Below are positions 1,280 to 34,331 of a stretch of DNA of 34,331 nucleotides, one piece after another. The notes beneath the pieces were generated by a model, which did no database searches, was not told where the DNA came from, and was given only the letters and a program-made list of their open reading frames with translations. Within the stretch, counting starts at the first letter, position 1; the number at the start of each line of letters is the position of its first letter. Source of the stretch: a virus. A program made the translations under genes and the position numbers. The DNA is taken from positions 1 through 34,331 of the IMG/VR virus record IMGVR_UViG_3300037104_000092; one strand, 5' to 3'.

Positions 1280-3322
1280 TTACTTTTCTCCTAAAACTCT
1301 TGATAAAAGAGTAAGAAACTCTGGTGAGGCATTATTTTGATGCTGTGGAGCTTCTTCAACTGGCTTCTTCATTTTGCTTAATAATGCTTTCTTTTTCAAT
1401 AGCTTATTTGCTTCTTCAACTTTATTTCTTGGTGTAACTTTAACATGTGTTCCAGGTTCTACCATTAGAGGATAAGTATCATTATCATATCCAGGAGGAA
1501 CAATAAAACTTCCACCTTTGTGTGCAACAGCAGCTAATAGAGCTAAATCACCTATTCCTGCATCTACTGCTGCTCCACCCGCTAATGAACCAGCACCCAA
1601 AGCAGCACCCGCAGCAGCACCCGCAGCACCAAGTCCAGCTACACCAGCAGCACCAAGTCCAGCAGCGCCAGCGCCCATTGCTTCGGTAGCACCCGCCCCA
1701 GCGCCAGCACCTGCATCAGCAGCGGCACCACCCATAGCACCCGCAGCACCTATATCAGCAGCGGAATCAGCACCAGCAGCAGCACTCGCAGCACCTACAT
1801 CAGCAGCGGAATCAGCACCAGCAGCAGCACCACCAACGCCAGATGCGGGATTTACTACAATACCAGAATCAGGAGCGGTGCCACCAGGAGATGCTCCTTG
1901 TCCTTTAAACTGACCCATTATTTTGTCATACATTTTTCCCAATTTAGAACCAGAAAGATTGCTTGAAGTAAGTGGTTTATTGGCGAATGATTTTCCGCCA
2001 GTATAATCCAAATTTTGTCCCATACTTTGAACGTCAATTCCATTTGCGGCTCTTAATGGTCTTATTCCACTTCCATTAACTATTGCTCCTCCTTGTGGAG
2101 GAATACTAACATTTCCACCCTTTTTTAATAACATAGGAAGAACTGATAATCCAACTTTAAGTCCAAGTTGAAGTATATCTCCTAACTCTGGCCCTTTATT
2201 TTCTTCTTTTGGTTCTTCCGTTTTTTCATCAACTATTAACTCTCCTCCTTCGGCCATTTGTTCTGGTGTAATTCCATATTTATCCCACTTGCCTCTTAAT
2301 TCAGCTGGGTCTTGGTCTATATCAGGGTCAGCATAATGATGCATCTTTCTTCTTGCGAATTCTTCTTCTTCTTTTGTTTTAGCATTTTTAAATGCTTCAT
2401 AATATTTAGAATGTAATTCTGCTCTTGTTCTTGCTTCCTTTTTTGCTTGTGTATCATTATGAGTTTTTGTATTTTCAGCAATAGTTCTATTTGTATCTAT
2501 TCTATTTTCTACGTTTTTTGCAACACCAACTACTCCAAGAGTTTCTAAAATTCCTTTTGCTCTATCCCATATTCCACCTATATCTGGTTTATATGGTTCT
2601 GATTCAACTAATTCACCGCTTTCTACAAGTAGAGGAAATGCTTTTCCTTGTGTAGCAACATCTCCACCTTTAGCCATTCCAGGAGGACCATTAAGCCCAA
2701 GCAAACTTCCAACACCACCCATAAAGGAGTTCATCTGTTGCTGACCTGACTGCTGTTGTGCTACACCAAGATTTCCCAAAGTTCCAGAAGCACCAGCTTG
2801 GGTTTGTGCTGCTCCAAGTTGCTGTTGTGTAGATTGAAGATATCTATTAGATACATTCTGTGCCTGATTACCAATCATACCAGTTCCCTGTTGATACTGG
2901 TTTATTCCTTGGGATACACCAGGAGCATAAGTTTGAGCATAAGTATTGGCTGCTTGTTGTCCTGCTCCTAATCCTGCTTGTCCCGCATTAACACCACTTG
3001 CTCTTGCGGCAGATGCGGCATTAGCAGCACCTTGTCCTGCTGATGTTTGGGCTACTTGTGATGCCTGATTTTGAGCTGTTTGTAATGCTTGTTTTTGGAA
3101 GTCAGCAGCATTATTGCCAACTGATTGCTGAAATCCTTGGTCTAAACCAGCACCCATACCAGCTTGTCCTGCTCCATATTGCTGTGCTTGACTACCAACT
3201 CCACCAGCAGTTCCAATAGCATTTTGCAACCCTGTTTTAGAGGCATCCATATTACCAGAAGCATTACCTTGTTGTGTAGAACCAGTTATAGCACCCAAAA
3301 AATCTGAAAACCAATCACCCAT
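1280..3322 (-). CDS. Ala/Gly-rich ejection-like virion protein, 680 aa
   Basis: The N-terminal 210 residues are Gln/Ala/Gly-rich (GNMDASKTGLQNAIG, AQQYGAGQAG) with helical periodicity. The middle (about 225-390) is charged and helical. Residues about 520-640 are an Ala/Gly block with repeats of AGADSAADVGAAS type followed by a glycine-zipper-like hydrophobic stretch. The C-terminus is basic. KGG-type motifs recur (MAKGGDV, AEGGELIV, KKGGNV, HKGGSF), two with a FPLLVESGELVE or YPLMVEPGTHVKV continuation. The start at 3322 has a good site (TAGGAG). It sits between the nozzle gene and the 333-aa gene, where podoviruses keep ejection proteins. The Ala block makes coding bases 1518-1913 locally GC-rich. 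Confidence 0.75.
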   Translation of the reverse strand: MGDWFSDFLGAITGSTQQGNASGNMDASKTGLQNAIGTAGGVGSQAQQYGAGQAGMGAGLDQGFQQSVGNNAADFQKQALQTAQNQASQVAQTSAGQGAANAASAARASGVNAGQAGLGAGQQAANTYAQTYAPGVSQGINQYQQGTGMIGNQAQNVSNRYLQSTQQQLGAAQTQAGASGTLGNLGVAQQQSGQQQMNSFMGGVGSLLGLNGPPGMAKGGDVATQGKAFPLLVESGELVESEPYKPDIGGIWDRAKGILETLGVVGVAKNVENRIDTNRTIAENTKTHNDTQAKKEARTRAELHSKYYEAFKNAKTKEEEEFARRKMHHYADPDIDQDPAELRGKWDKYGITPEQMAEGGELIVDEKTEEPKEENKGPELGDILQLGLKVGLSVLPMLLKKGGNVSIPPQGGAIVNGSGIRPLRAANGIDVQSMGQNLDYTGGKSFANKPLTSSNLSGSKLGKMYDKIMGQFKGQGASPGGTAPDSGIVVNPASGVGGAAAGADSAADVGAASAAAGADSAADIGAAGAMGGAAADAGAGAGAGATEAMGAGAAGLGAAGVAGLGAAGAAAGAALGAGSLAGGAAVDAGIGDLALLAAVAHKGGSFIVPPGYDNDTYPLMVEPGTHVKVTPRNKVEEANKLLKKKALLSKMKKPVEEAPQHQNNASPEFLTLLSRVLGEK

Positions 3323-3332
3323 ATCATATCTC

Positions 3333-6300
3333 CTAACTACTCATTCCAAATTCGGGAATGGCAAGCGTATCATCCACAGTTTCAAACTCTACTGATTTTA
3401 TTATTACATAACTACTACAAAATAACTCTACTGAAATACCTAATGACCTTTGGGTAGTAGGTTGTATTCTTACAACCCTCTGTCCATTTACAGACCAATC
3501 TTGTGGTTTTATTACTCTACTAAAATTCTGTTGTAGTTCATTATAAGAACCACCAGCACCAGTATTTATAGTTGTTATATTACCTGTAAGTGTAGTTACT
3601 GTTTTAGCTGGATTATGAAGATAAATAGCTATTGAATTAACTATTGATTTTTCATTTCCCTGCTGACCGAAATAACCACTCTTCCAATCCAAAGGAATTA
3701 TTACTGAACTACTTGTAGGAGCAAAAGTATATTGCCAAGTATACCAATTACTACCGTCATTACCAAGTATAAAAATACCTTTGACTGTATTAAATAATTG
3801 TAAATTCTGCTGTGTCGGAAGAAGAGAGTTTTCTGTGAAAATACTATCTCTCATCCATACTAAATTACCAGAGTTAAGCATTAATAAAGTATTTTCACCA
3901 TCTCCAAATACTCCACTTGTTATTGGTAGTAGTTCATTTAATAGAACTACTTTGTTTAATTGATAATCTCCACTAAAAACGAATAATGAATTATCAAATG
4001 GAGAGATAAAGAAAGCTAATTTTGGTGATTGTGCTATAAATTGTAAGTCAAATGCTTCTGCTCTTCTTGTTTTATTTTGCACTACATTATTTTGTATATC
4101 TACACTCCAAATGTATTGTCCATCAAAAATGTAGTTTTGTCCGTATAACAAGAAATTATTAAATATACCTGTAAGTTGATTACCAACTCCATAACCAGCA
4201 TAAAGATTTACTACACCATTTATCTGTCCACTATTGTAGTTTTGTAGTAAGAAAATAGTTTCAATAGGAGTAGTTACTGCCTTCTGTTTATAAATATAAC
4301 CCTGTGCTATTGGAATAACTGGTGTAGTTCCCCCACCTGAGTTAAGAACTATTGCTGCTGAATAACTCATTCCAGTAGTTCCTGCTATTGAGGAAACAAG
4401 CAAGTTTGGATTTACAAAATTAGAACCATTACTAAATACACTTGATATATAAATATTATCATAGAAAGCATCTATTTCATAATTTTGTGGTATTTGTGTA
4501 GTATTAGGTAGAGTAATTCCTATTGGAGTAAAATTTGATGAAGTAAAAGGATTTATGTAAATAAACTTATTTCCGGGGTCTACTGAATTAGAGTATAATC
4601 CTTGATAAAGAGCTACAAAGAAATGTGTTATTGCAGAAGGTGCTGCTGTTGAACTAAATAATACTCTGCCATTATAATCACAACTATCAATTACTAATTG
4701 ACTTGCTCCTGTATCCAAAAGATTTAATGGAGAAATTGTATTTATTTTGTATAAATTTCCATACATTTCTTGTATAACATTAGGAGGAGTTAAAGTTATA
4801 TCAATAATATAGAATACATTATTGTATTTATACAATATTCTATTATTAGATATAGTTTTAGGAATAAAGTTAGCATCAAATTCACCATAGTTAGTAATCA
4901 ATACTCCAAGATTATCATTAGTAGTTCCAGTTAATGCTACTGAAAGTGCTGTCTGTGAGTTATTAGTCCAAATAGTCCTAAACTCAAATGGAACTGATGG
5001 AGCTAATCCATATCCATTAGTAAGTTTTCCATAAGCATTTATAGGTGTATTAGTATTACACTGATTAGTATTTACTAATGTAGTTTGAGTAGAATTGAAT
5101 TGTGGAGCATAAAGATTATAATAATTTTGTGTATCTCCACCTTTTCTAAATACTATATCTACCGCTCCCATTCCTATATTATTTTGATAAACAATAGCAG
5201 AAGGAATAGAAATATTTGGATAGGCTACTGAATTAGTGAAAGTAGAAAAATCATTGTATCCATAAGTTCCAAAAGCTGTTAAATTGTTATTTATAGTTTG
5301 AGGAATTCCAGATACTAATGCCCTTGATTTTGCTCCATTATATTGAATAACAGCATAACGAGCGTTAACAACATCTATTTCACTATTTATATTTAATGAA
5401 TACCAATTGCTTTCCAAACAATTAGTAACTCCGTATAAATATACACCATTTTCAAATCTATAAGCGAATATGGGGGCTAATCTTGCTTGTGGTAAATCAA
5501 CTATGTTACTACCAGATGCGTGTAGAAATAAAATATTATTATTTATTAGATTATATGGTGAAATTGTGCCTGTATTTATTATATTATTATTGAATATAAA
5601 GAACGAAGGAAGAGATACATTTCCTGTCTGTATCAATCCATTATTATAAGCACCAGTTCCTGTTCCTGTTCCATTATACTTCTTCCAATTTCCCTTTGAA
5701 CCATCGAAAGGAGTTACAGATACTCCATCCCAAGATGCTAATCTTCCTTTATTACCTGATAATGCGTATAAATATCCACCATTAGAAATTAACTGCCATA
5801 TGCTATCAGCACCAGTTATAGAACTATCAGCATAAGGAGCATAAGATGTAGCACCAGCATTTAGAACAGTTCCATTTGGATTAACCCAAGTAGAAAGATT
5901 AGTTGTAGCAGAAATATATGGATAAGGGTCAAAAGACGCTATTGTTCCTCTACTAAATCCAACTACTAAATAGTTTCCATGTTGAGTTAAGGACTTTATA
6001 TCTTGTGTTATTTGAGCATTCATTGCCAGAGCATAAACACCAGTTCCTGTTGCATTATAAGGCGTCCAAGATGTTCCATTCCAAGATGCTAAATAAGCAT
6101 CTGTTCCAGTTCCATTTCCACCACCTATTACTAATGTATTATTTGTTTCATAAGAATAATTAGTCATAGCAGTAATATTAGTAGCACCTATTGGAATACT
6201 TCCATTTCCAGCTAATATAGTATTACCAGTTCCTGTTGCGTTATAGTTAGTAGCAGTATTTCCAGTAAAAGATGCTAAATACCCACCATTACAACCAAAA

Positions 6301-9300
6301 GCTAATGAGTTTCCATAAATAGTAGCACAGTTAATTTTAGCAGAGTTAATCCAAGTAGTTCCAGCACCAGAGTAAATACCTGTTCCTGCTTGTAGCCCGT
6401 TCCAAGTTTTCCAATTACTACCATCATAAGAAGCCATTACTCCACTATCACCTGCTATTACAAGCCAGTTATTATATTGAAGAGCAACATTGATATTTTT
6501 TGTTCCTGTGGCAGTTCCAAGATTAAATGGACCAGTTCCAGAACCAGAACTATCTCCAAATCTCCATGCTAATCCATCAAAAGAATTAACATATTTTCCT
6601 ATACAATAAACTAAATAGCTCTTGTATTGAGTTACTATTGGATTTCCTACTTGATTAAAGAAAGATGAAGGAACATTTTTGTTATTATAAACAATTTCCC
6701 AAGTGGCAGTTAGTTTATTATAATTAAATATTCCATTACAACCACCAGAAAATATCCAGTTAGGTCCCCAAATCTTAACTATTGTAGAAGCACCAAAATC
6801 TAATGCTTTATAATTCCATTTATGAGGATTACTTACTCCACCAGTTCCTATATTATTATAATTATTCCAAGTTGTATTATTCCAATTTCCAACATAATAT
6901 CCACCAGCAACTATTAAATATTTAATAGCACCAACAGTGAATATAGTTAGAGCTGATGTTGCAGAACTATTTATTACACTTCCATTATTAGAAGTTCCAG
7001 TTCCATCTCCTCCCCCATCAACATTCTTCCAATTACTTCCATTCCAAGAAGCTATTCCTGTAGTTGCATTACTACCAACTATCATATAGTGAGTAGCAGC
7101 AGGAAGATAATCTGTAATTACAGTAATAGGATAATCACCAGCTAATATAGCAGTTCCAGTATAATAAGGACCAGTTCCACTTCCTGTCCCATCACTATTC
7201 TTATAATTAGCTCCATCCCAAGATGCTATTCTTGTATTTCCATTGAAAGTATCTGTGAAAATAAGAAATCCATTCCAACTTGCAATAGTTCCTTGGACTG
7301 GATAAGTAGAAACAGAAGTTCCACTTCCTAATCCAAGTGGTTGATTTTCAAGACTACTTGAAAATCTTGGACCAGTTCCAGTCCCTGTCCCATCACTATA
7401 TTTCCAATTACTTCCATCCCAAGAAGACATACCATTAAAATAATAATAATTACCTGAAAAACTATAAGCAGTAACAGCATATACAAGAAGATAAGTTGAA
7501 TAAACAGCTAATCTTACACTATGATATGAAGGAGCACTACCAAGATTGTTTCTATTACATTCCAATCCATCTGCTTTTGTATTTGTAACATAAGGACCAG
7601 TTCCACCTCCTGTCCCATCAACTTTTCTCCAATTACTTCCATCCCAAGAAGCTATATTTGAATTTGTTGATGAACCAGCTAATACTAAATTATTATTTAT
7701 TATTAGAAAAGTTGAATAAACACACATATCATTGAAAGAATTAGCTGGCATTCCAAGTGAAACACAACTTCCTACATAAGGACCAGTTCCACTTCCAGAA
7801 CCATTATAATTTTTCCAATTAGTTCCATCATAAGATGCAATATAAGATTGTGTTAAGAAAACTAATTTAGTTGCTGCCCCAGTTCCATATGAAAGAATTT
7901 TTATTATAGTTTGCCCGTTAAATGCTGTTCCATTATTGTAAGGACCAGTTGAAGTTCCATTAGAACCACCATCAAAATTCTTCCAGAATCCTTTTCCTAT
8001 ATCAAATGAGCCAACTAAACCATTAACTCCGCCTACTACATAGTAGCTATCACTACCATAAACATAGTAAGTAGAAGCAGTAATGGCATTATTTCCTAAT
8101 ACTTTTGCATTATTCCATAAACCTTCAACAGCAGTTCCATTATATGCAGACCAAGTTCCATTAGCATAAGTTCCCATTCTTCCGGGTCCTTCTGCTATGA
8201 GATAACTATCACTTGTATTTAGATAGGTAATGTTCCAAACACCAACAGCATTTTGATTAGAGTAAGGGCCAGTTCCAGTTCCAGTTCCTCCACTTTTTTT
8301 CCAATTAGCACCATCAAAAGATGCAACATATCCACTATCACCACCTACCACATAGGAACCATAATAAGTAGTAGCAGACCTAATAGTACTTGACATTGCC
8401 TCACCAGCATTAGATACAACAAATGAAGCACCGTGTCCTGTTGAAACATTAGAGAACCAGCTATCACCTCTAAATGCTGTAACTACTCCACTATCACTAC
8501 CACACATTAGATAACGAGTAGTTCCTAATTTGTAATAAGTTAGGGTTCTTATAGTTTTATTGACATTTACTAATTTAGAGGTAGTAAAAGAGTTTAGCCC
8601 AAGCCAAGGTCCTTTACCACTTGAATAAGAGGTATGCCAGCCATCTGTTAAAGAATAACTTCCAACATATCCGCTGTCTCCACCAAATACTAATAAAGAA
8701 GCTGTATCACCATAAGTAGCTAATGCGTTTACATTACGAGCAGTAAATCCAGAACCTAATACTAATTGATTATCATAGATACCAGAACCAAATCCAGAAC
8801 CATCATAATTCTTCCAAGTAGTTCCATCAAAACTTCCAGTTCTTCCTGTATTACCACTTACTATTAACCACTTATTAAAAGTAGTCATAGCTGAAATTTG
8901 TCCTGAACCTATTACACTTCCATTATTGTAAGGGCCAATACCCAATCCAGTTCCATCTGGGTATTTATAGTTACCTAACCTATCAACAGAAAGAACTTTT
9001 CCATCAATAGTTCCAAATATAGCATAACTATCACTTGCTCCTATATAAATAGTTGAGTTAGTAATATAATAAGAAGTTAGATTAGAATAGCGAAGAATGG
9101 TTGATGTTGGGTTACTTTCTTTTAAGAAATAAGCAACTTTACCAGTCCTTAATATAAATTCTTGTTGTTGAGCGTAAGTAGCAGAACTATTTCCTATAAT
9201 ACTTATTGATGTAAATGAAGAAGTTATGTTATTTAAGATAGTGAAAGTGATATTTCTTGTATTTAATAGTATATTACTTAAACTATATTCACTTAATGTA

Positions 9301-9689
9301 ATAGTAGAACCAGAAATTTTAGCAGTTAGATAAGTTCCAGATGTAGTAAGGACTATATCATCAGGTCCTACTATTGGATTATAGTGAGAAACTCCATATG
9401 AGGAAACAGAACCAATAGTTTTGTTATTTAGAGTAATAGTATTAGTTAATCCATTTACATAGGACTGGATTATACCACCAGAATCACTTACATAAAAAGT
9501 ATTATTTAACACTGGACCCAGAGTATCTGCTATCATAGAAACAGGTATAATACCAGCTCTTCTTACTAAACCATTATTATTTTGATGGTTAGTATTGGTA
9601 TCGTCAAAACTATGGATGTTTGGGTTTGCCTCATCAGTGCATATAGGACGATTAAGGTTAATGCGTTTTTTCGATGCTTTATATGCCAT
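3333..9689 (-). CDS. Giant nozzle-like tail protein with about 20 propeller-like repeats, 2118 aa
   Basis: The largest gene, about 19% of the genome. The N-terminus (KKRINLNRPICTDEANPN, then GLVRRAGIIP) and C-terminus (IVNSIAIYLHN, WSVNGQRVVRIQP, SVEFETVDDTLAIPEFG) resemble P22 gp10/T7 gp12-type tail nozzle proteins, which bind below the adaptor and usually have several hundred residues. Between about residues 220 and 1400 lie some 20 repeats of 50-75 residues built on SWDGSNWK-x3-DGTGTGTGPY followed by a YLVVGG-SG strand. These look like beta-propeller blades with a glycine-rich loop. The next gene upstream is the adaptor. Site TAGGA precedes the start. The repeats could bind glycans or form a wide lower-tail ring. 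The nozzle assignment is inferred from order and terminal segments; a fibre or tailspike is the alternative. Confidence 0.72.
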   Translation of the reverse strand: MAYKASKKRINLNRPICTDEANPNIHSFDDTNTNHQNNNGLVRRAGIIPVSMIADTLGPVLNNTFYVSDSGGIIQSYVNGLTNTITLNNKTIGSVSSYGVSHYNPIVGPDDIVLTTSGTYLTAKISGSTITLSEYSLSNILLNTRNITFTILNNITSSFTSISIIGNSSATYAQQQEFILRTGKVAYFLKESNPTSTILRYSNLTSYYITNSTIYIGASDSYAIFGTIDGKVLSVDRLGNYKYPDGTGLGIGPYNNGSVIGSGQISAMTTFNKWLIVSGNTGRTGSFDGTTWKNYDGSGFGSGIYDNQLVLGSGFTARNVNALATYGDTASLLVFGGDSGYVGSYSLTDGWHTSYSSGKGPWLGLNSFTTSKLVNVNKTIRTLTYYKLGTTRYLMCGSDSGVVTAFRGDSWFSNVSTGHGASFVVSNAGEAMSSTIRSATTYYGSYVVGGDSGYVASFDGANWKKSGGTGTGTGPYSNQNAVGVWNITYLNTSDSYLIAEGPGRMGTYANGTWSAYNGTAVEGLWNNAKVLGNNAITASTYYVYGSDSYYVVGGVNGLVGSFDIGKGFWKNFDGGSNGTSTGPYNNGTAFNGQTIIKILSYGTGAATKLVFLTQSYIASYDGTNWKNYNGSGSGTGPYVGSCVSLGMPANSFNDMCVYSTFLIINNNLVLAGSSTNSNIASWDGSNWRKVDGTGGGTGPYVTNTKADGLECNRNNLGSAPSYHSVRLAVYSTYLLVYAVTAYSFSGNYYYFNGMSSWDGSNWKYSDGTGTGTGPRFSSSLENQPLGLGSGTSVSTYPVQGTIASWNGFLIFTDTFNGNTRIASWDGANYKNSDGTGSGTGPYYTGTAILAGDYPITVITDYLPAATHYMIVGSNATTGIASWNGSNWKNVDGGGDGTGTSNNGSVINSSATSALTIFTVGAIKYLIVAGGYYVGNWNNTTWNNYNNIGTGGVSNPHKWNYKALDFGASTIVKIWGPNWIFSGGCNGIFNYNKLTATWEIVYNNKNVPSSFFNQVGNPIVTQYKSYLVYCIGKYVNSFDGLAWRFGDSSGSGTGPFNLGTATGTKNINVALQYNNWLVIAGDSGVMASYDGSNWKTWNGLQAGTGIYSGAGTTWINSAKINCATIYGNSLAFGCNGGYLASFTGNTATNYNATGTGNTILAGNGSIPIGATNITAMTNYSYETNNTLVIGGGNGTGTDAYLASWNGTSWTPYNATGTGVYALAMNAQITQDIKSLTQHGNYLVVGFSRGTIASFDPYPYISATTNLSTWVNPNGTVLNAGATSYAPYADSSITGADSIWQLISNGGYLYALSGNKGRLASWDGVSVTPFDGSKGNWKKYNGTGTGTGAYNNGLIQTGNVSLPSFFIFNNNIINTGTISPYNLINNNILFLHASGSNIVDLPQARLAPIFAYRFENGVYLYGVTNCLESNWYSLNINSEIDVVNARYAVIQYNGAKSRALVSGIPQTINNNLTAFGTYGYNDFSTFTNSVAYPNISIPSAIVYQNNIGMGAVDIVFRKGGDTQNYYNLYAPQFNSTQTTLVNTNQCNTNTPINAYGKLTNGYGLAPSVPFEFRTIWTNNSQTALSVALTGTTNDNLGVLITNYGEFDANFIPKTISNNRILYKYNNVFYIIDITLTPPNVIQEMYGNLYKINTISPLNLLDTGASQLVIDSCDYNGRVLFSSTAAPSAITHFFVALYQGLYSNSVDPGNKFIYINPFTSSNFTPIGITLPNTTQIPQNYEIDAFYDNIYISSVFSNGSNFVNPNLLVSSIAGTTGMSYSAAIVLNSGGGTTPVIPIAQGYIYKQKAVTTPIETIFLLQNYNSGQINGVVNLYAGYGVGNQLTGIFNNFLLYGQNYIFDGQYIWSVDIQNNVVQNKTRRAEAFDLQFIAQSPKLAFFISPFDNSLFVFSGDYQLNKVVLLNELLPITSGVFGDGENTLLMLNSGNLVWMRDSIFTENSLLPTQQNLQLFNTVKGIFILGNDGSNWYTWQYTFAPTSSSVIIPLDWKSGYFGQQGNEKSIVNSIAIYLHNPAKTVTTLTGNITTINTGAGGSYNELQQNFSRVIKPQDWSVNGQRVVRIQPTTQRSLGISVELFCSSYVIIKSVEFETVDDTLAIPEFGMSS

Positions 9690-11221: not shown

Positions 11222-11255
11222 AAAAAAAGCCAGCATTTAGCTGGCCTTTTTTTTT
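11222..11255 (-). terminator. Bidirectional intrinsic terminator at the end of the GIY-YIG gene
   Basis: The stem GCCAGC/GCTGGC with a 5-nt loop is flanked by seven A on one side and nine or more T on the other, so it can act on either strand. On the minus strand it overlaps the stop codon of the GIY-YIG gene and separates that gene from the adaptor gene. Confidence 0.82.
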
Positions 11256-11971
11256 CCTTTATTCCAAGGAATTTGTCCTTTATGACTTTCACTCATATGT
11301 TTTCTTGCTTCTTCATCAAATACAGTTCCTATCCTAGGTTTTCTACTTTTTGGATAACTTATTTTCTTTCCTAATTTAGAAGCACTAATTCTATTTTTGG
11401 TTTCTTCGCTCATAGAAAGTCCTTCATTCCACGCTTTCTGTCCCTTATGTGCTTCACTTAAATTCTTACACCATTCTTCTGATAATTTAGTGCCTTTTCT
11501 ACTAGTTGATTTACCTATTCTAGCATCACTTAACTTTTTAATATGCTCTTCTGAATAAGCACCTTCTAATCCTTTATTCCAAGGAATTCTTCCTTTATTT
11601 GCTTCTCCAACCTTCTTTCTTATTTCTAGGTCTTTCATTGGATTATTTTCTATCATATGTTTTGACATTTTCTTTTTAGTTTCTTCGTGATGATGCTTAT
11701 TTAGGTTTCCTCCACTATCTAAATTATATCCATTAGGAACCAAACTATTATATTCAATTATTTTTTTCTTTTCTAATTCATCTAACTCGTCATCAGGGAC
11801 ATTTTCTATAATAATTCTCTCAAAGTTCTCTTCTCCATACATTCTTAAAGCATTTCCAATATAAGATTTTGCTTTTCTATGGTCTCTTAATCTATTATAA
11901 ACTTTTTGTATTGTCTGACCTATATAACATTTACCATCTAACTTGTTTTTAAGTATATAAATTGTTCCCAT
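11237..11971 (-). CDS. Free-standing GIY-YIG homing endonuclease with NUMOD3 repeats, 244 aa
   Basis: The N-terminal GIY-YIG nuclease domain is clear: GTIYILKNKLDGKCYIGQT (residues 2-20), a following arginine in NRLRDHRK, and the acidic helix-strand end IIEYNSLVPNGYNLDSGG near residues 69-86. The C-terminal part carries DNA-binding NUMOD3-type repeats (NKGRIPWNKGL, HKGQKAWNEGL, HKGQIPWNKGK) and many Lys. This is the architecture of I-TevI-like and Seg-like enzymes, which cut a target DNA so that their own gene or a neighbouring intron is copied in. Hairpin terminators lie on both sides, so it looks like a cassette placed between capsid and adaptor genes. Start supported by AAGAGG. The nearby capsid intron lacks its own ORF. 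Confidence 0.92.
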   Translation of the reverse strand: MGTIYILKNKLDGKCYIGQTIQKVYNRLRDHRKAKSYIGNALRMYGEENFERIIIENVPDDELDELEKKKIIEYNSLVPNGYNLDSGGNLNKHHHEETKKKMSKHMIENNPMKDLEIRKKVGEANKGRIPWNKGLEGAYSEEHIKKLSDARIGKSTSRKGTKLSEEWCKNLSEAHKGQKAWNEGLSMSEETKNRISASKLGKKISYPKSRKPRIGTVFDEEARKHMSESHKGQIPWNKGKKKAS

Positions 11972-12081: not shown

Positions 12082-13776
12082 CTAAAATTGTGAAGCGTTG
12101 ATATCTGTTGTCTTCACAACAGCGCAGTTTGCAGGATTAGTAACAGCCCAGTTTCCATAAAGAGAAAGATTGACTTGTGCCGCAGGACCATCACTGGTAG
12201 ATGCGGGTTGAATGTTAATCAACTCATCAATCATCAACTTAAATGTGAAATCAGGAGCACCTTCACGACCAATCTGCTCCCTACCTGGTTCATTAGCACC
12301 AACTCCATCATCAGCAGGTTTTTCAGCATTACTCATGTGGATGAACTCAAAGGCATCTCTATCAAGAATGTAGATAATACCAGTTGGACAGTATGGGTCT
12401 TCAATTACTTCTTTTAGCCAAGAAGTTGAGAACTGGAAGTCCATCTGTTGTAGTCCAACTACCATTTCATTAGCAGAGCCCTTATCTGGGGATGCGTTGA
12501 TAGCTTGGAAGTAAGTAGTATTAGCACGAATTTCTTCAAGGATAGCAGCGAATGTTACATCATTCATTACTATCATATTAGGAACTCCACCTTGCCTTCT
12601 TGCATACTGAACACCATACTTAACTGCGGCAATTCTTGGTTCTCCACCAGTTACAGTTCCTTGTAGATAGAAAGCACCTGCTAATCTATCAGGAACCAAG
12701 TTTCTGGAAAGATTGAAGAAAGAAGTTCCAATATAGGTAGTCCAGTTACCACCAGTCCTATTGTAATGAGATGGTAGCCATCCTCTAAATCCTGTCTGCA
12801 TATTTCCAACACCAGTAGCATCTCTTCCACCCAATAGTTCAAGCCAAGCATACTGTGCGAAACCACCAGCGGGGGCTTGTGGAGTGAAAGTTACAGTTGT
12901 TCCAACTATATTTGTTACTGTGAAAGCAGTTGCAGTTGACTGAACATTTCCAACTGTTCCAGTAGAACCAATAAGAGCTGAACTTGGGTCAGCAGATGTG
13001 GTTGCGTAGAACATAGTTCCAATATCCATCTTAACAATAGTATCAAAGTTAAGTGTCATAGTAGTAGCAGCAGCGTTAACTACCACTGGGAGCTGTCCTA
13101 ATTCACCATAGGAAAGTCCATAAGCACCAGCAGCAAAGGTTTTACGCATTGCGTCTGTTGCAGCCATCATCTTGATTACTGCTGGGGGATCAAAAGCACC
13201 TTTTGTAGATGCACCAGCAAGAATTTCTGCTTCGTTGATGTAGAAAGAGGAGAAGAGTTTTCCGTAAGGAACTCTTGCCTGCTGTGTAGCAGCACCCATT
13301 CCACCTACGTTTAGGATATTCTGTGCCTGAAGAAGGTCACCAGATACCTGACCACCACGAGTATACATCATTGGCCATACATAGTATTTTCCACCAACCT
13401 TCATTTTCTTTGCCATTTTTAGCATAGGTGAATTTCTATATAGAAGGTTTTCAGTTGAATGGTCTCTATACCCAAATATATTCCACAGTAATCGCTAATT
13501 CTGTGCGTTCTTTTATGAACTGCTATATGTTACCATATAGTTTAGACTATATCTTCATCTTTTTTTAAGATGCCTTCCATTTCGGGATTGCTTAATCCCT
13601 ACGTCTTTCGACTAGTCGTTGAACGTTCCCTTTCGGGCTTCGCTGCTGATTGTCCCATTGGGAGTTCCCAGCAATTAAGAAGGTTTAACTATCGAATTAC
13701 TTCGATAGTGAGCAGTTTTAGTTTACTCTTTGTAAATTGTGAATAGGTCAGTATTCGCATTAGGGAATAACGCCAT
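12082..13776 (-). CDS. Major capsid protein, split by a group I intron (480 aa after splicing)
   Basis: Exon 1 is 13776-13725 (MALFPNANTDLFTIYKE plus one base of the next codon) and exon 2 is 13472-12082. Joining them across the intron at 13473-13724 gives TGG (Trp) at the junction and a continuous 481-codon frame: ...IYKE-W-YRDHSTENLLYRNSP-MLKMAKKMKVGGKYYV. The product follows the scaffold-like gene and is followed by a strong terminator, the usual capsid position. Motifs such as VGGKYYVWPMMYTRGG at the N-terminus, and an Ala/Gly/Thr-rich body, fit an HK97-fold phage capsid protein of usual size. Exon 1 has its own site (AAAGGAG) and a promoter-like motif upstream. Read without splicing, translation would stop one codon after KE, so splicing is needed for the full protein. 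Confidence 0.88.
13473..13724 (-). ncRNA. Group I self-splicing intron (IA type), ORF-less, in the capsid gene
   Basis: On the minus strand the core elements appear in order. P1 is exon GAGU with GCUC, giving the U.G pair at the 5' splice site. P2 is ACTATCGAA/TTCGATAGT; P3 is CCTTC/GAAGG; P4 and P5 surround TTGCTGGGAACTCCC; P6 is CCC-GAAA-GGG. The R element GTTCAACGACTAGTCG starts P7. The P7.2-like hairpin GGGATT-AAGC-AATCCC, typical of IA introns, follows. P8 is CATCTT/AAGATG; the S element AAGATATAGTCT closes P7; then come P9 (CTATATG-GTAA-CATATAG) and two small P9 extensions. The last base is G, and exon GGU can pair with ACU next to the guide as P10. Length 252 nt, with no endonuclease ORF inside. 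Confidence 0.93.
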
Positions 13777-13866: not shown

Positions 13867-14499
13867 CTAACCTTTTTTGGCTTTTGCTACTCCCTCTTTA
13901 AATCTTCTAACATAATCTATTGCATTTTGTCTTGCTTTTTCATCATCACTTAATTCTGCACCTGGAGCCACTTCTGGAGCTACTGGCTGTCCTACCTGTG
14001 GGAAGGCTGTCTTAAACTGACCAAGTAATCCTTCAACTACTTCATCATCTTTACCTTCCACATATTCAGGGGATATCTTTATTTCATCCAAAATGTCAGT
14101 AAGTTGTTCGTAGATATCAGGAGCACCTTCTTCTCCCCAATCGGCAGATTTATATGGTTCTTCATAATCTTTGAACTTATCGTGGTATTTAGTCATTACC
14201 TCACCCACCTTCATTTTATGTCCAGTGGCTTGGGCAACTTTTCTTGCGCTTTCAATCAAATCAACATCAACAGTATGAGCTACTCTCTCTATACTTTCAT
14301 CTAACTGACCAACTTTAATAACCAATGCCTCTATTACAGTAGCAAGGGCTATAATCTTATGACCAGCTTCTTCGTGTTTAGCATCACATTCTTCGTGCCC
14401 TTCACCCATCATTGGTGCTGGTGTTGGTTCATCGTTAGCATGCAATTCTGCATATGCCTCTTCAATAAGAGCTTTTTCTTCTTCGTTATAGGAACCCAT
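13867..14499 (-). CDS. Putative scaffolding protein, 210 aa
   Basis: An acidic, mostly helical protein between the portal gene and the capsid gene, where scaffold genes lie. Residues 1-45 are very acidic with a His/Glu/Cys cluster (GEGHEECDAKHEEAGH). Residues 45-75 form a heptad-like helix (IIALATVIEALVIKVGQLDES). A Pro/Ala linker (QPVAPEVAPGAEL) precedes a basic C-terminal helix (NAIDYVRRFKEGVAKAKKG) that would suit capsid binding, as known for P22-like scaffolds. The start follows the portal stop by two bases. The role is inferred from position and composition; no diagnostic motif was seen. Confidence 0.68.
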   Translation of the reverse strand: MGSYNEEEKALIEEAYAELHANDEPTPAPMMGEGHEECDAKHEEAGHKIIALATVIEALVIKVGQLDESIERVAHTVDVDLIESARKVAQATGHKMKVGEVMTKYHDKFKDYEEPYKSADWGEEGAPDIYEQLTDILDEIKISPEYVEGKDDEVVEGLLGQFKTAFPQVGQPVAPEVAPGAELSDDEKARQNAIDYVRRFKEGVAKAKKG

Positions 14500-14501
14500 T
14501 A

Positions 14502-16298
14502 TTATTGCCCTCCTTGTTGTGGCATTTGTGGTGATTGTTGCGGAGCAGTTAAAGGAAGATTACCCTGACCTGAAGGCCCAGGCACCTGGGGTGGCTGTCC
14601 TCCATTAACTTGTAGTGGAGGAAGATTAGCCTGAACATTCTGTTGCACATCACCAATCTTCTCTGTTATTATTTCTATTAGTTGTTTTAGGTTATTTAAA
14701 ACCTTTTCGTTTTCATCATTAGCATCTAATCTCAAAAGAGTTTTTGCAGTTTCACTAAATAGTTGTTGTAGATTAACTACTTCATAGAAATTGAAATCAC
14801 CCTTTTCTGCTGCTTTTTCTATAATATGCTGACAGTCATCATAAGATGCAGATGCGACTGAATATGCCTTCTCCAAATCCGGGAATTGAAGTAAGTTAGC
14901 AGCCATATCAGGTGATATAATCTGCATTGAGATAAGATTTTGAACCTGACCTAACTTTGTAGCTGGGTCTTTTGATAAAGCAGAAGCATCACTAAATTGA
15001 ACCGAGAAAGTATCTTTCTCTTCTTTAATGTCGCTCCATTTAATCTTTGCTCTACCCATTTTCTTTGGTAGAACATCTGCGTCTCTTGGGAAGATGTTTA
15101 TTACAGATGTAGCAATCTTCATACAGAATTTCTTATATCTCTCTTCTAAATCTTGAAATCTTTCACTCTCTACATCTTCAAGTGTTTCAATTGCCTTACC
15201 AGAATTCAATCCAACTGGTTTTTTTGATTGAGCGGATAGTTGAGATACACCTTCAAGGTTGTAAATCTTCTGCTCCATCCAATCTACATACTCTCTATAC
15301 TCTGGAGAGATAGGAGCAGGAGTTCCAATCCTTACTGGGTCTCCTCCACCTGTCAAAGAGTTATCATATCTAATAACTATACCTGCTTGAGTGGTTAATT
15401 TACTCTCTTTTACAGGAGAATTTGACTTATCAGCATTTTCTGGGATGAAAATAAGGTTAAAAGGTGAAACTTCTAATGCATCACTGATTTTTTGGACTGT
15501 TTGGTCTATTTTTTGCTGAATTGTATAAGAAGTATCCTCCAAAGATACTGAATAACCACCTTTTAGTGGCTCATTAGCATAAAAAGTGATTACAGGAGGA
15601 CAATCATACTCAATAGGGGTCTTTTTTATGATGTCTTGACCTATAAGTTCATATTTCATCTTATTTTTTAAGTCATAATACACTTTATACCAGCAATTTA
15701 ACTGACTTCTATCCTCTAAATAACGCTCAAATTTAGTTCCCTTAATCTTTTCTTCAAGGTAAGTGATTGGATAATACTGAAATTCCAATAAGCACCTTGT
15801 TATTTTACCATATTGGTATTCAGCAGCATCTTCAAAGTATTGCCAAGGTCTAATAAGTTTAACAGAAAGAGTTTCATCATCAATCCATAGTCCGCCATAT
15901 TCAATAGCAAGGGCATAACGAAGAGACATAATCGCTTTTGCATATATTTCTTGTTCGTCAAAGAACTCATTAAAGAAAACTTGTGCTTGCCTACATACTT
16001 TTTGTGTCTTCCAAGTGCCATTAACAGGGTCAAAGAAAGGCATTACTTTAAGTTGAGCCATCTTTGATGTTATAGTTTCAATAGCAGACCTGATTACATT
16101 GAATTGAGGTATAATTCCAGTATCATCATCTGTCATTACATAGAAGTAAGCCAAAGGATTACCATAGGGATTATATACATCTTCTGTTCTTCTACCATTA
16201 TTTACATAACGATTAAAATTTCTTCTATATTTAAAATCTCTGTTTTGTTTCTTTTGAGATAAAAATGCTATATCAGTTAATACTTGTGCGTCTATCAT
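14502..16298 (-). CDS. Portal protein, 598 aa
   Basis: The portal ring forms the DNA entry vertex and docks terminase and adaptor. The size and pattern fit: N-terminal helix and basic segment (FLSQKKQNRDFKYRRNFNRY), the wing-start region YFYVMTDDDTGIIPQFNVIRSAIETITSKM, a long helix with KPVGLNSGKAIETLEDVESERFQDLEERY (about 385-415), and a Pro/Gln-rich disordered tail. The frame is open to 16418, but that stretch overlaps the 130-aa gene; the start is taken at 16298 (MIDAQVLTDIAF), just after the upstream stop. Followed directly by the scaffold-like gene, in normal head-gene order. Confidence 0.85.
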   Translation of the reverse strand: MIDAQVLTDIAFLSQKKQNRDFKYRRNFNRYVNNGRRTEDVYNPYGNPLAYFYVMTDDDTGIIPQFNVIRSAIETITSKMAQLKVMPFFDPVNGTWKTQKVCRQAQVFFNEFFDEQEIYAKAIMSLRYALAIEYGGLWIDDETLSVKLIRPWQYFEDAAEYQYGKITRCLLEFQYYPITYLEEKIKGTKFERYLEDRSQLNCWYKVYYDLKNKMKYELIGQDIIKKTPIEYDCPPVITFYANEPLKGGYSVSLEDTSYTIQQKIDQTVQKISDALEVSPFNLIFIPENADKSNSPVKESKLTTQAGIVIRYDNSLTGGGDPVRIGTPAPISPEYREYVDWMEQKIYNLEGVSQLSAQSKKPVGLNSGKAIETLEDVESERFQDLEERYKKFCMKIATSVINIFPRDADVLPKKMGRAKIKWSDIKEEKDTFSVQFSDASALSKDPATKLGQVQNLISMQIISPDMAANLLQFPDLEKAYSVASASYDDCQHIIEKAAEKGDFNFYEVVNLQQLFSETAKTLLRLDANDENEKVLNNLKQLIEIITEKIGDVQQNVQANLPPLQVNGGQPPQVPGPSGQGNLPLTAPQQSPQMPQQGGQ

Positions 16299-16302
16299 AT
16301 TA

Positions 16303-16695
16303 TTACCAAACGATGTAGCAGTTTCCACCACCACCTGTAGGAGAACCACTATCTGTGGAGTAAAGCATATTCCCATTTGGAGCATAACCATAAATAAATA
16401 TACCTGCTCCGCTATCAACTGTTACAGTAGTAACACTATCACCTATTCTTACTAAATTACCAACTCCTACTAATGGTCTTGCACCAGCAGTAGTTACTAT
16501 TGTTGAGGTAGCAGCAAAAGCTGGATAAGGAGCAGTAGTATCACCTCTGTAAGAAGTATCTCCACCTGTTCCTTTAACTGTTCCAATTCTGTTACTAGTA
16601 ATAGAGTTATCAATGTAAGTATTTTTGCATCCCGGACAAGTAATAGTAACCTGTCCTGTGACTGTTTGTGTAATTGTAGGATATAATATAGCCAT
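16303..16695 (-). CDS. Small beta-rich protein, 130 aa, paralogue in a tandem set
   Basis: Not recognised. It opens MAILYPTITQTVTGQVTITC and is predicted all-beta with CPGC near residues 20-23. A GVGNLVRIGDSVTTVTVDSG segment is followed by GYAPNGNML and a GGGG-Cys end. The opening and the GVGNL motif recur in the neighbours at 17046-17306 and 17307-17512, so the three appear to be paralogues. The position before the portal suggests a minor head or decoration protein (inference). Strong site (TAGGAG) upstream. Confidence 0.6.
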   Translation of the reverse strand: MAILYPTITQTVTGQVTITCPGCKNTYIDNSITSNRIGTVKGTGGDTSYRGDTTAPYPAFAATSTIVTTAGARPLVGVGNLVRIGDSVTTVTVDSGAGIFIYGYAPNGNMLYSTDSGSPTGGGGNCYIVW

Positions 16696-18991: not shown

Positions 18992-19188
18992 TGTTTATCT
19001 CTATTAATATAACCATCTAAAACATTAAATCCCAAATACATTCCAGTTAAACTTCCACAAATTATTACTATCTCTTTTAGTGGTAGAGGAACCTGTGTCT
19101 TTGATTGCCAGTAGAAAGAGCCTATCATAAATGCTAACCAAAAGATTGTGAATAAGAACTTACGGCTACTCCATCTTGGCTTACTCAT
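18988..19188 (-). CDS. Small membrane protein, possible holin, 66 aa
   Basis: Two hydrophobic segments are visible (about residues 10-28, FLFTIFWLAFMIGSFYW, and 38-56, EIVIICGSLTGMYLGFNVL), with a basic N-terminus (MSKPRWSSRK) and charged C-terminus (NRDKQ). The size and topology match small phage holins, which make membrane holes at lysis, but no endolysin is recognised beside it. The start overlaps the terminase stop and its stop overlaps the methyltransferase start. Confidence 0.55.
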   Translation of the reverse strand: MSKPRWSSRKFLFTIFWLAFMIGSFYWQSKTQVPLPLKEIVIICGSLTGMYLGFNVLDGYINRDKQ

Positions 19189-20948
19189 TTTATCCCCTTT
19201 GATGCGAATATAGGATGATAGGCATAAAGCAAACTATCGCAGAGGTCAGGATGAAATACCAAATCATCTATCTCTCGTGTTAGCTGGTCTTGTTCATCCC
19301 TTGAAAATACTGTGTATAATGCTTCTTCGGCAAAGATGCTATCTGTCTTTAAACTTCCATCTGGTTGCCTTACTGCATGACACTTTAAGTTCCTACTCAA
19401 TACTTCTTCCCTTAATAGTTCTACCTTCTGCTGTTTATTTGTCTTAATAGCATCTACTATGGGTATACCTTCTTTACGGAAATCAATAGCAGTTTTCTGT
19501 CCACCAGTAGCATATTCAGCCCAGACAGCAAAATTCTTACCTATTGTTACCAGCTGTGGTTTAGCATATTGCATTTGAGTAGTGTTTAATGTAGCTGTCA
19601 TTTCCCATCCTGGGTCATTAGGGGCTACTAACTCTTTTCTATCAAATACAGGATTCTTAACTATCTCATTTATTTTATTCTTAATAGCATCTATTAACTC
19701 ATTCCATCCAGTTCTGCTTTTCTTGTATTCACTTATAATAAACCTTAATGGTGAGGAAATACTCCACATTACCATTACGAAAGCATCAGCAGATACAAAT
19801 CCATAGTCCAGTCCAGCAGTAAATCTTATGTCAGTTATAGGTTGAGCATTAACCCAAGCTATTAACTCTTCATTAGTATAATAGTTCTTATCACTTAATC
19901 TATATACCAAAGCATCATCATCATAGGATACTTTACCTAAATACTCTCTTACATAGGCATTACTATTTTCAGTCCAGTTATGTTCTCTTAATACTTGTTC
20001 TAATACAAGTTGATGGTCATTGATATGAGGATTAGAGAAGAGATTCCAATTTAACCTCAATCCAGGCCATCTATTATCTACATTCTCCCAAATCTGTCCC
20101 CAAAGCATACCTCTGGTTCTGGGGCCAGTTCCACTCATCATTAGTGTTCCTTTGGTATCTATTAAGGTAGGCTCTAATATGGATTCAAGGTAGTATTTTA
20201 GAGTTGCGTTATCGTGTGATTGCACTTCATCTATTATTACTAAATCCCAATATGGACCTCTTGCCTTCTCTCTTTCAGCAGAAGAAGCATTACCAGCAAT
20301 GAATAGCTCACTTCCATTAGCCATCTTCATATAACCTTCATTTCTTCTAAATGTCTCTACTGGTATTTTAAGCTTCCAACATAAATCTTTCATATGGTCA
20401 TAAATCAAATCTATTGCTTTTGTTATGGTCAATCCAATATAAAGAACTTTTACTGGCTTTTCACTTATCCTTCTTACTGGTGTATCACTTGCTAACTCTA
20501 CCATAGTGTATATTAGTTTCAACTCATTTACTATGGTTTTACCAGCTCTACGACCACACATTAAATAAATTCTCTTTTCTTTACTTAATAATACCTGCTG
20601 TTGTATATCAAATGCTCTTTTATAGATGCGGAATAATCTATAATCTAAATCATCATCCTTACCTCTATTGAGCCAGTCATCATAATCACTTAAAGTATTT
20701 TGTTGGAATAATAAACCAGATACTAACTCTTGTGCTCTACCCTTACCCTTTGCAGCATCATCTAATAGATTTTCTACTATTGCATCAAATCGGGTTTGGT
20801 CCTTGCCCTTATTATTAGTTCTTTCCTTTAATGCTTGAATTAAACCTTCTTGTATTTGTCTTTTAGCTGATTCTGTGCCAGGTGGTCTTCCATGAGGATT
20901 ACTAACAACACCAGGTTGAAATCTCCAAGGTTTTTTTACTTCTTCCAT
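19185..20948 (-). CDS. terL: Terminase large subunit with N-terminal DUF5681-like segment, 587 aa
   Basis: ATPase-nuclease that packages DNA through the portal. Walker A is GRRAGKT (residues 132-138), Walker B LVIIDE (236-241), coupling motif SGTG (272-275), and the nuclease domain starts at GLDYG (D381), with further acidic residues near the C-terminus (IDDLVFHPDLCDSLLYAY). Residues 9-30 (RFQPGVVSNPHGRPPGTESAKR) match the start of DUF5681-type segments, often found in small terminase-like proteins. No separate small subunit is obvious, so its DNA-recognition role may be fused here. Length is above the typical 450-550, consistent with the extension. Confidence 0.93.
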   Translation of the reverse strand: MEEVKKPWRFQPGVVSNPHGRPPGTESAKRQIQEGLIQALKERTNNKGKDQTRFDAIVENLLDDAAKGKGRAQELVSGLLFQQNTLSDYDDWLNRGKDDDLDYRLFRIYKRAFDIQQQVLLSKEKRIYLMCGRRAGKTIVNELKLIYTMVELASDTPVRRISEKPVKVLYIGLTITKAIDLIYDHMKDLCWKLKIPVETFRRNEGYMKMANGSELFIAGNASSAEREKARGPYWDLVIIDEVQSHDNATLKYYLESILEPTLIDTKGTLMMSGTGPRTRGMLWGQIWENVDNRWPGLRLNWNLFSNPHINDHQLVLEQVLREHNWTENSNAYVREYLGKVSYDDDALVYRLSDKNYYTNEELIAWVNAQPITDIRFTAGLDYGFVSADAFVMVMWSISSPLRFIISEYKKSRTGWNELIDAIKNKINEIVKNPVFDRKELVAPNDPGWEMTATLNTTQMQYAKPQLVTIGKNFAVWAEYATGGQKTAIDFRKEGIPIVDAIKTNKQQKVELLREEVLSRNLKCHAVRQPDGSLKTDSIFAEEALYTVFSRDEQDQLTREIDDLVFHPDLCDSLLYAYHPIFASKGIK

Positions 20949-25425: not shown

Positions 25426-25821
25426 ATGGTAGATAGATTTGATTTTTTACATTCTTACAATGAAAAAACTTTAAAAGAAAGTTTTCTAAATGAAAAAGAT
25501 GCTATGGATAATCAAAGTGTAGAACTAGAAATAGACCATAGAATAACTCCATATAGGTATAATGGCATTGAACCAGTGATGCCAGAAAATCCGACTGATG
25601 AGTATCTAAAAAAGAACTATATGCTCTTGACAAAAAAGAATAATAATATTAAAAGAGAAGCATGTAAAAAATGTATAGATACTAATGTAAGACAAACTTC
25701 TCTCATTGGAATAAAATTTTTTTATTCTGGCAATGAAAGATTTGAAGGAACTTGCGAAGGATGCTGGTGGGCCTATCCTGAAAAATGGAAAGAAGAAGTT
25801 GGAAGGAAACTGAATAGTTGA
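25426..25821 (+). CDS. HNH endonuclease, putative restriction enzyme partner, 131 aa
   Basis: Residues 34-50 (ELEIDHRITPYRYNG) hold the D-H of an HNH nuclease. KKNNNIKREAC (70-80) supplies the N and following Lys. Cysteine pairs C80-x2-C83 and C110-x2-C113 would bind zinc, as in Cys4 HNH restriction enzymes such as PacI. The end (EGCWWAYPEKWKEEV) matches the GCxWxxPxxW pattern seen beside such domains. The start is 25426, with AGGAG upstream, rather than an earlier TTG at 25396. The stop overlaps the start of the adenine methyltransferase gene, so the two are translationally coupled, the usual arrangement of a type II restriction-modification pair. A homing or packaging HNH enzyme is possible, but its partner argues for restriction. 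Confidence 0.72.
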   Translation: MVDRFDFLHSYNEKTLKESFLNEKDAMDNQSVELEIDHRITPYRYNGIEPVMPENPTDEYLKKNYMLLTKKNNNIKREACKKCIDTNVRQTSLIGIKFFYSGNERFEGTCEGCWWAYPEKWKEEVGRKLNS

Positions 25822-26783
25822 ACTATATAGGAAGTAAGCTTTCTCTTTTAGATTTTATCTACTCAACAATAAAGGATACTGCTCCTCATTTAGAGGAAGC
25901 AGTTTTTTTTGATTTATTTGCTGGAACTGGAATAGTTGGTAGATTTTTTAAAAATAAAGTAAAATCTGTAATAGCAAATGATTTAGAATATTATAGTTAT
26001 GTTCTTAATAGATATTACATACAAAACTCTAAAAAAATAGATTTTGATTTTTCAACACTAAATAATCTAAAAGGTATAAAAGGATTTATTTACAATAACT
26101 ATTGTCCTACCATAAGTGATAGAAAATATTTTACTGATGAAAATGGAAAAATAATAGATGCCATAAGAATAGAAATAGAAAAATATAGAGAAGATGACAA
26201 TCTTTATTTTTTTCTACTTTGTTCTTTGCTGGAAAACGCAGATAAAGTTGCTAATACCGCTTCTGTCTATGGTGCCTATCTTAAAAAGTTCAAAACAACA
26301 GCAAGCAGAAAACTTGAAATCAAAGCATCTCCTATTATAGAAACAGATAATAAAAATCTTGTGTTTAATGAAGATGCTAATACCATTATAAAAAAAATAG
26401 AAGGAGATATTTTATATCTAGACCCACCATATAATGAAAGACAATATGGAGCAAACTATCACTTGTTAAATACGATTGCTAAATATGAAGTATTTGAACC
26501 AAAAGGAAAAACTGGATTACCAGAATATAATAAATCTTCTTATTGTAAGAAGAATGAAGTAATAAATATATTTGAAGATTTAATACAAAATGCTAGATTT
26601 AGATATATATTTCTATCATATAATAATGAAGGTATTATGCCAATGAAAGAAATAAAAAAGATAATGAGTAAATATGGAAAATATGAAATAGCAGAAATGG
26701 ATTACAAAAGATATAAAGCAGACAATGGAAGAATGTATAGCGCCAACGCCACAAAAGAATATATTCACATTTTACAAAAATAA
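25818..26783 (+). CDS. D12-class adenine-specific DNA methyltransferase, 321 aa
   Basis: Transfers a methyl group from S-adenosylmethionine to adenine N6 in DNA. The N-terminus MNYIGSKLSLLDFI is characteristic; motif I is DLFAGTG (32-38), and motif IV DPPYNERQYGANYHLL starts at 202. The latter is the extended signature of FokI/D12-like adenine methyltransferases. The start codon is TTG, overlapping the stop (TGA) of the HNH gene, with GGAAGGA about a dozen bases upstream. No other start gives the conserved N-terminus. Length is normal, so the enzyme should be intact, unlike the broken methyltransferase at 18399-18991. The recognition sequence cannot be told from sequence alone. Confidence 0.88.
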   Translation: MNYIGSKLSLLDFIYSTIKDTAPHLEEAVFFDLFAGTGIVGRFFKNKVKSVIANDLEYYSYVLNRYYIQNSKKIDFDFSTLNNLKGIKGFIYNNYCPTISDRKYFTDENGKIIDAIRIEIEKYREDDNLYFFLLCSLLENADKVANTASVYGAYLKKFKTTASRKLEIKASPIIETDNKNLVFNEDANTIIKKIEGDILYLDPPYNERQYGANYHLLNTIAKYEVFEPKGKTGLPEYNKSSYCKKNEVINIFEDLIQNARFRYIFLSYNNEGIMPMKEIKKIMSKYGKYEIAEMDYKRYKADNGRMYSANATKEYIHILQK

Positions 26784-33365: not shown

Positions 33366-34331
33366 CTATTTGTAGTTGATGTTTTTCTTGAAATACGCAT
33401 CTGTAAGCCCCATATTATCTAATCCAGATAGAGGAACACCCATACGAGTTTCAAGTGTATTAAACAACTGACTCTTCATTTGAGTTTTATTCATACCAGA
33501 GGTTCTTAATTCCATTAGCATATTTTCCACTGCTGGAGTAGATGCTTTTGTGTTTGTTCCTTGTGGAGTAACTGCTGCTGCTATTGTATCTACTAATCTT
33601 TCATAGTTATATCTTGCTGCTTGAAGTTTAGGAGAACCACCAGTAATTCCAAGGGTATTTTGTAGATTTGCCCATCCCTTTAATCCACTTCCAAGTAATC
33701 CAGGTTGATTAGCCCATCCACCAATACCATAATCCATTGCCTTACTAAAATCAATTTGTGACATTGACCTTACTAAATCAATTCCCTTATTATAGGCATC
33801 AGCACCAGCAGGGTCTCCATAATTAAGAATTCCACCTGTATTTATTGGCTTAAATCCTTTTGTTTCTTGCATCAATTGATTATAAAAATCTTTATATGAA
33901 ACTGGGGGACTAGGCATCCAACCATATTCTTCTTTATACATTCTCTGCACGTTAGTTTCAATGATTTTTTTATAGTTATCGGGGGTTGCTGCATAAATTT
34001 CCTTAAAGGTTTTTATAGGTTGTGAAATATCCCCAGCTGGTTGTCCTAATGTAGAGCGTGTCTCATTCTGTGTTGGAGGAGTTAAATTAGTGTTTGGTGC
34101 TTTTTCTCCTGCTATATAATTTTTAAGTGTATCAACTACGCTTGGAATTGCTCCTCCAACCATTCCTCCAACCGCAGCTCCTACTGGTCCAGTAGCACCA
34201 CCAAGAGTAGCACCACCAAGAGTAGCACCTAATCCAGTTAAAGTTCCACTTCCACCACCAAATCCTCCAAGATTTTGAGGTTGAGGGCTTTCATCTGTTT
34301 GAGGTTGAAGGCTTTCATCTGTTGGAGCTGG
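33366..34331 (-). CDS. Junction-spanning virion-associated protein, C-terminal part
   Basis: Continues the gene that starts at 265; the frame is open from the right window edge to the stop at 33366. After the Gly-rich hydrophobic segment (GAAVGGMVGGAIPSVVDTLK) the protein is helical and polar (TFKEIYAATPDNYKKIIETN, YNYERLVDTIAAAVTP) and ends MGLTDAYFKKNINYK. The full joined length is 355 residues (360 if the right-hand repeat count is used). The ATG at 34163 is internal and not the true start. Ejection or minor tail function is inferred from the order: ejection-like genes, this gene, then fibre genes. Confidence 0.72.
   Translation of the reverse strand, partial: PAPTDESLQPQTDESPQPQNLGGFGGGSGTLTGLGATLGGATLGGATGPVGAAVGGMVGGAIPSVVDTLKNYIAGEKAPNTNLTPPTQNETRSTLGQPAGDISQPIKTFKEIYAATPDNYKKIIETNVQRMYKEEYGWMPSPPVSYKDFYNQLMQETKGFKPINTGGILNYGDPAGADAYNKGIDLVRSMSQIDFSKAMDYGIGGWANQPGLLGSGLKGWANLQNTLGITGGSPKLQAARYNYERLVDTIAAAVTPQGTNTKASTPAVENMLMELRTSGMNKTQMKSQLFNTLETRMGVPLSGLDNMGLTDAYFKKNINYK
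34169..34331. repeat. Right copy of terminal redundancy
   Basis: Corresponds to 1-148 with one extra 15-bp unit (two agcaccaccaagagt units instead of one). The variation is in frame, so it may be real repeat-number polymorphism in the phage population or an assembly error in a tandem repeat. Confidence 0.9.

Follow-up and report, generated by a model that had tools for sequence, protein, structure and literature searches.

The td, nrdB and nrdD introns of phage T4 lie in genes of nucleotide metabolism. The locus described here shares with this class the core helices, the P7.1/P7.2 stems, a U.G pair at the 5' splice site, a terminal G and an early in-frame stop, whereas it differs in the absence of an internal open reading frame (ORF) and in its host gene, which is the capsid gene of a small phage. 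Phages with an intron in a capsid gene have been described before. For mycobacteriophage LittleE, splicing of an intron in the major capsid gene has been shown by RT-PCR and N-terminal sequencing (PMC3706429), and the lactococcal phage Tuc2009 is cited in the same paper as a precedent for a capsid-gene intron. LittleE resembles our case in the split major capsid gene, in an exon 1 that ends with U and in an intron that ends with G, but its intron is 819 bp long, has an ORF for an endonuclease on the other strand and interrupts another capsid protein in another host. Group I introns have also been observed in the major capsid protein (MCP) genes of crAss-like phages, in their Delta and Zeta groups (PMC7886860); these phages are likewise uncultivated, but have several introns per gene, endonuclease domains and much larger genomes. 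In Jug phages, terL, nrdD and other genes harbor numerous group I introns (PMC12363816). Matching intron DNA has been found in 742 phage records. The present locus clearly adds another capsid-gene intron to those known; new here are a compact and well-supported example in an otherwise unmatched small phage, the correct start of its capsid protein, an independent parallel case and a testable pairing with an endonuclease.

The DNA analysed, referred to as the window, comprises all 34,331 bases of an IMG/VR virus record. Its ends overlap (1-148 against 34169-34331, 148 vs 163 bases) with a 15-base gap inside a coding region, and the record is therefore probably a near-complete genome, circularly assembled and with an imperfect end repeat. 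Most of its genes lie on the minus strand, where those for TerL, the portal, a probable scaffold, the capsid, a GIY-YIG endonuclease and the tail follow one another in this order (Table 1).

Table 1. Coordinates of the features discussed in the text; the last row refers to positions of contig L048
Feature	Position	Strand	Remarks
Group I intron, IA type, without ORF	13473..13724	-	252 nt
Exon 1, major capsid gene	13725..13776	-	52 nt; MALFPNANTDLFTIYKE and the first base of Trp18
Exon 2, major capsid gene, HK97-fold coat protein (predicted)	12082..13472	-	family HMM, AF2, Foldseek
P1	13728-13725/13713-13710	-	exon GAGU with internal guide GCUC
P2	13709-13701/13696-13688	-	located by coordinate
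P3	13683-13679/13577-13573	-	located by coordinate
P4	13673-13669/13648-13644	-	located by coordinate
P5	13663-13659/13657-13653	-	located by coordinate
P6a	13637-13635/13630-13628	-	located by coordinate
P7	13617-13613/13549-13545	-	located by coordinate
P7.1 (GUC/GAC)	13612-13610/13605-13603	-	located by coordinate
P7.2 (GGGAUU/AAUCCC)	13599-13594/13589-13584	-	located by coordinate
P8	13572-13567/13561-13556	-	located by coordinate
P9	13540-13534/13529-13523	-	located by coordinate
TerL	19185-20948	-	terminase gene
Portal	14502..16418	-	tblastn, 97 capsid-family loci; true start probably internal to the ORF
Probable scaffolding gene	13867..14499	-	position and acidic composition; same order in L102
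GIY-YIG + NUMOD3 homing endonuclease, free-standing	11237..11971	-	Pfam, PHROG
Capsid intron of L048	6563-6813	+	ends with the G of an ATG

Structure of the Intron

A preliminary description of this DNA had proposed that a compact group IA intron splits the major capsid gene, with all core pairings in order, a P7.2-type hairpin and a U.G pair at the 5' splice site, and it had suggested the Rfam group I model as a check. In an Rfam cmscan of the window, RF00028 has been matched by 13730-13523(-) with 111.2 bits (E 2.5e-28; gathering score 50) over all model positions 1-253, and besides this match neither a tRNA nor another RNA family has been detected in the window. Helices P1 to P9 have been located in order, with U13725 opposite G13713 in P1 as the anticipated U.G pair. 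The stems P7.1 and P7.2 (13584..13612), which show up as inserted sequence when aligned with the Rfam model, follow the 5' strand of P7 and precede the 3' strand of P3, a position characteristic of the IA type. When seven introns were aligned, substitutions on both sides that keep the pairing were observed in P3, P5, P7.1, P8 and P9 in most of the sequences, while P4 is almost unvaried and P7 invariant; the columns of P1, P2 and part of P7.2 are uncertainly aligned, and for this reason nothing is deduced from them. Read from the sequence, the 3' tail of the intron (13522-13473) holds two more hairpins, GUUCAUAAAAGAAC and CACAG...CUGUG. Together, the full-length model match, the core helices with their covariation, the U.G pair and the terminal G identify the element as a group I intron. 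The position of P7.1 and P7.2 supports its placement in group IA, and the two stems suggest the subtype IA2.

Splice Sites and Reading Frames

Upon removal of the intron, which is inserted after base 1 of codon 18, the exons join in frame 0 to give 480 amino acids and a stop, with TGG (Trp18) spanning the junction. Among the 14 candidate G's between 13520 and 13464, G13473 alone gives frame 0 together with a P10 of 3 bp, one of them being G.U. The intron borders proposed beforehand have proved exact to the base, and the 481-codon frame that had been predicted corresponds to these 480 codons plus the stop. A Shine-Dalgarno sequence, AAAGGAGAC, lies upstream of exon 1, with the strong ribosome binding site AAAGGAGACAATT in front of its ATG 13776. 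Without splicing, the ribosome would read 17 codons and a UAA composed of the U of exon 1 and the first AA of the intron, which is the 18-codon peptide foreseen earlier, and the remaining downstream ORF, the N-truncated capsid, would comprise 447 amino acids from ATG 13425.

The presence of this open 447-aa frame could indicate a decayed or bypassed intron and a functional capsid protein that is translated from ATG 13425 on unspliced RNA, which we regard as very improbable, as the conserved helices are all intact, the sequence upstream of ATG 13425 (AGAAATTCACCT) contains no Shine-Dalgarno or other ribosome binding site, and the 16 residues preceding it (WYRDHSTENLLYRNSP) hold a conserved motif of the capsid family described below, contributing 21.5 bits of the family score. 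Annotation that disregards the intron yields a wrong capsid start, as had been pointed out, with a loss of 33 residues including the conserved NLLYRNSP motif.

Hence, with high confidence, we favor an ORF-less group IA intron, predicted to be self-splicing, that interrupts the MCP gene of an uncultivated tailed phage and whose removal restores a 480-aa HK97-fold capsid protein. Once transcribed, the intron would fold as P1-P9, the 5' splice site at U13725 would dock on the guide sequence via the U.G pair and be attacked by guanosine, and exon 1 would then be joined to exon 2 after G13473. The in-frame UAA across the 5' splice site would halt ribosomes before they reach the ribozyme and should protect its folding; early in-frame stops in group I introns have been seen in this way, as halting ribosomes and allowing folding (review PMC3984707). 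We infer that splicing occurs in vivo, and, the capsid protein usually being the most abundant protein of a phage, the intron would have to splice very efficiently or the phage would pay for it.

Identity of the Split Gene

Regarding the protein encoded by the split gene, no direct match has been found in Pfam, PHROGs or PDB sequences, and tblastn against phage genomes has given none at E 1e-5 and two chance matches up to E 10. No real relative has been recovered from IMG/VR when searched directly with the capsid, terminase and portal proteins, nor from GTDB genomes when searched with the capsid protein. Matches to antibody light chains in the PDB have been taken as chance, and a weak portal match in L002/L003 has been discarded, falling in L002 inside an AAA-ATPase-like ORF. 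A consensus sequence has matched no phage record, but has indicated two PHROGs annotated as 'major head protein' (9953 and 14242, to neither of which the window protein itself shows a direct match), and has led to a scan of IMG/VR with a degenerate DNA pattern encoding N-L-x-Y-[KR]-N-[NS]-P-x-[LF] and a downstream K. The scan has returned 106 stretches, all coding for one protein type, and the relatives tested (3 of 3) match PHROG 14242 or 9953.

A profile of this family, built from 26 non-redundant relatives, has scored the spliced 480-aa protein with 113.0 bits, exon 2 from Trp18 with 108.0 bits and the unspliced 447-aa ORF with 86.5 bits, the best of 500 shuffles reaching 7.9. As exon 1 adds only ~5 bits, its assignment also needs the frame, the ribosome binding site and the position. 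The collecting motif is itself part of the similarity between the window protein and the family; the match covers profile positions 11-367, however, and the similarity is therefore not dependent on this motif. The alignment crosses the junction, with aalKelYpdkkvkNLvYkNNPl in the family facing TIYKEWYRDHSTENLLYRNSPM in the window, and the family motif K-x-x-Y...N-L-x-Y-K-N-N-P matches KEWY...NLLYRNSP across the proposed splice junction. Relatives that lack the segment and begin differently had been named as evidence that would speak against the intron; in 106 of 106 relatives the N-terminus is uninterrupted and its motif agrees with that of the spliced protein. Since the K-x-x-Y part is uninterrupted in all 106, all represent empty sites, at the protein level; their identity to the window capsid protein is only 20-26%, and none of the relatives found is close enough for an empty site at the nucleotide level.

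An AlphaFold2 model of the spliced protein, computed with 57 relatives, has reached pTM 0.74 and pLDDT 69 (pLDDT 29.5 without an alignment). The Foldseek matches listed for it are phage capsids, GTA capsids and encapsulin-like shells, including the capsids of SU10, of the cyanophages A-1(L) and Mic1, of GTA and of HK97 (best E 3.3e-9), with query-normalised TM-scores of only 0.23-0.47, and the model points to a predicted HK97 fold. Homologues of the window portal (tblastn, best E 1e-37) and of its TerL have been found in 97 and 48 of the capsid-family loci, respectively. The order TerL-portal-scaffold-capsid of the window recurs in L102, where PHROGs have confirmed the portal (PHROG 156) and TerL; the probable scaffolding protein of the window has no family match in PHROGs. 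The missing Pfam, PHROG and PDB sequence matches of the window protein itself might suggest that the intron interrupts some other structural gene and not that of the major capsid protein. This appears extremely improbable in view of the 113 bits scored against a family with matches to 'major head protein' PHROGs among its members, the HK97-fold model and the gene order. We consider the major capsid assignment secure on the basis of the family profile, the PHROG-matching relatives, the fold model and the portal and TerL neighbours, and the preliminary reading of a group I intron of the IA type in a capsid gene with a corrected start has been supported in all its parts.

A Second Capsid Intron in HTVC010P-Like Phages

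Scanning IMG/VR with an intron-core pattern has yielded 45 stretches. Two of these, the HTVC010P-like phages L048 and L019, contain a compact group I intron in the capsid gene (RF00028, 108.7 and 106.2 bits). If the last intron base in L048 is taken as the G of the ATG before GCAAGA, the length of the HTVC010P capsid gene is restored, with a frame of 285 codons including the stop and with TPHARRMVTL corresponding to TPHARRRVSL. Gene callers will therefore start the capsid protein falsely at this ATG. In the window phage as well as in HTVC010P-like contigs such as L048, the N-terminus of the capsid protein is lost upon automatic annotation. The introns of L048 and L019 resemble that of the window in the absence of an ORF, in their location in the 5' part of the MCP gene and in the in-frame UAA with which they open, whereas the capsid protein is different and the insertion site lies after ...TPH, at codon 69. 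They represent an independent insertion, and two capsid-gene sites have been invaded in small phages. The occurrence of compact, ORF-less introns in the 5' part of the capsid gene in two unrelated lineages of small phages suggests that capsid genes are a recurrent target. On another viral contig, of 14 kb, three group I introns have been observed within ~1 kb (L023:9138-10191(+)) and a fourth at 2330-2585(-).

A Neighbouring Homing Endonuclease Gene

The endonuclease gene of the window is separated from the capsid stop by 110 bp and from the intron by ~1.5 kb, and it is flanked by two terminator-like hairpins. Its product matches PF01541 (E 1.5e-10), PF07460 (E 1.4e-13) and the homing endonuclease family phrog_314 (E 4.2e-27). 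Collaborative homing, the spread of an ORF-less intron by means of a free-standing endonuclease, has been documented in two other systems of phages (review PMC3984707), and the neighbouring gene offers a testable case of it: the GIY-YIG enzyme would cut intronless capsid alleles, and the repair would copy both the intron and the endonuclease gene. The two elements lie close together, and neither the group I intron nor the GIY-YIG gene has been found in any of 50 related contigs (0/50 for each), so that both look foreign to the lineage and like later arrivals, although these contigs are mostly fragments, which makes the absence suggestive only. The endonuclease may, however, home alone into an intergenic site, and no GIY-YIG gene has been found on G001, the HTVC010P-like contig containing L019, despite its capsid intron, for which reason collaborative homing is treated here as a working hypothesis, and as one that is rather unlikely to be correct. 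Such homing would be compatible with splicing of the intron, to which a link with the endonuclease would be an addition. With the same reserve, the intron and the GIY-YIG gene might be viewed as a collaborative homing pair aimed at the capsid gene of this small phage and as a possible intermediate toward an intron that carries its own endonuclease.

Elsewhere in the genome, a D12-class adenine DNA methyltransferase is encoded at 25818-26783(+) (PF02086, E 8e-48), and a 2118-aa protein encoded at 3333-9689(-) contains many repeats of the GTGTGPY type and is possibly a repeat-built tail or fibre protein.
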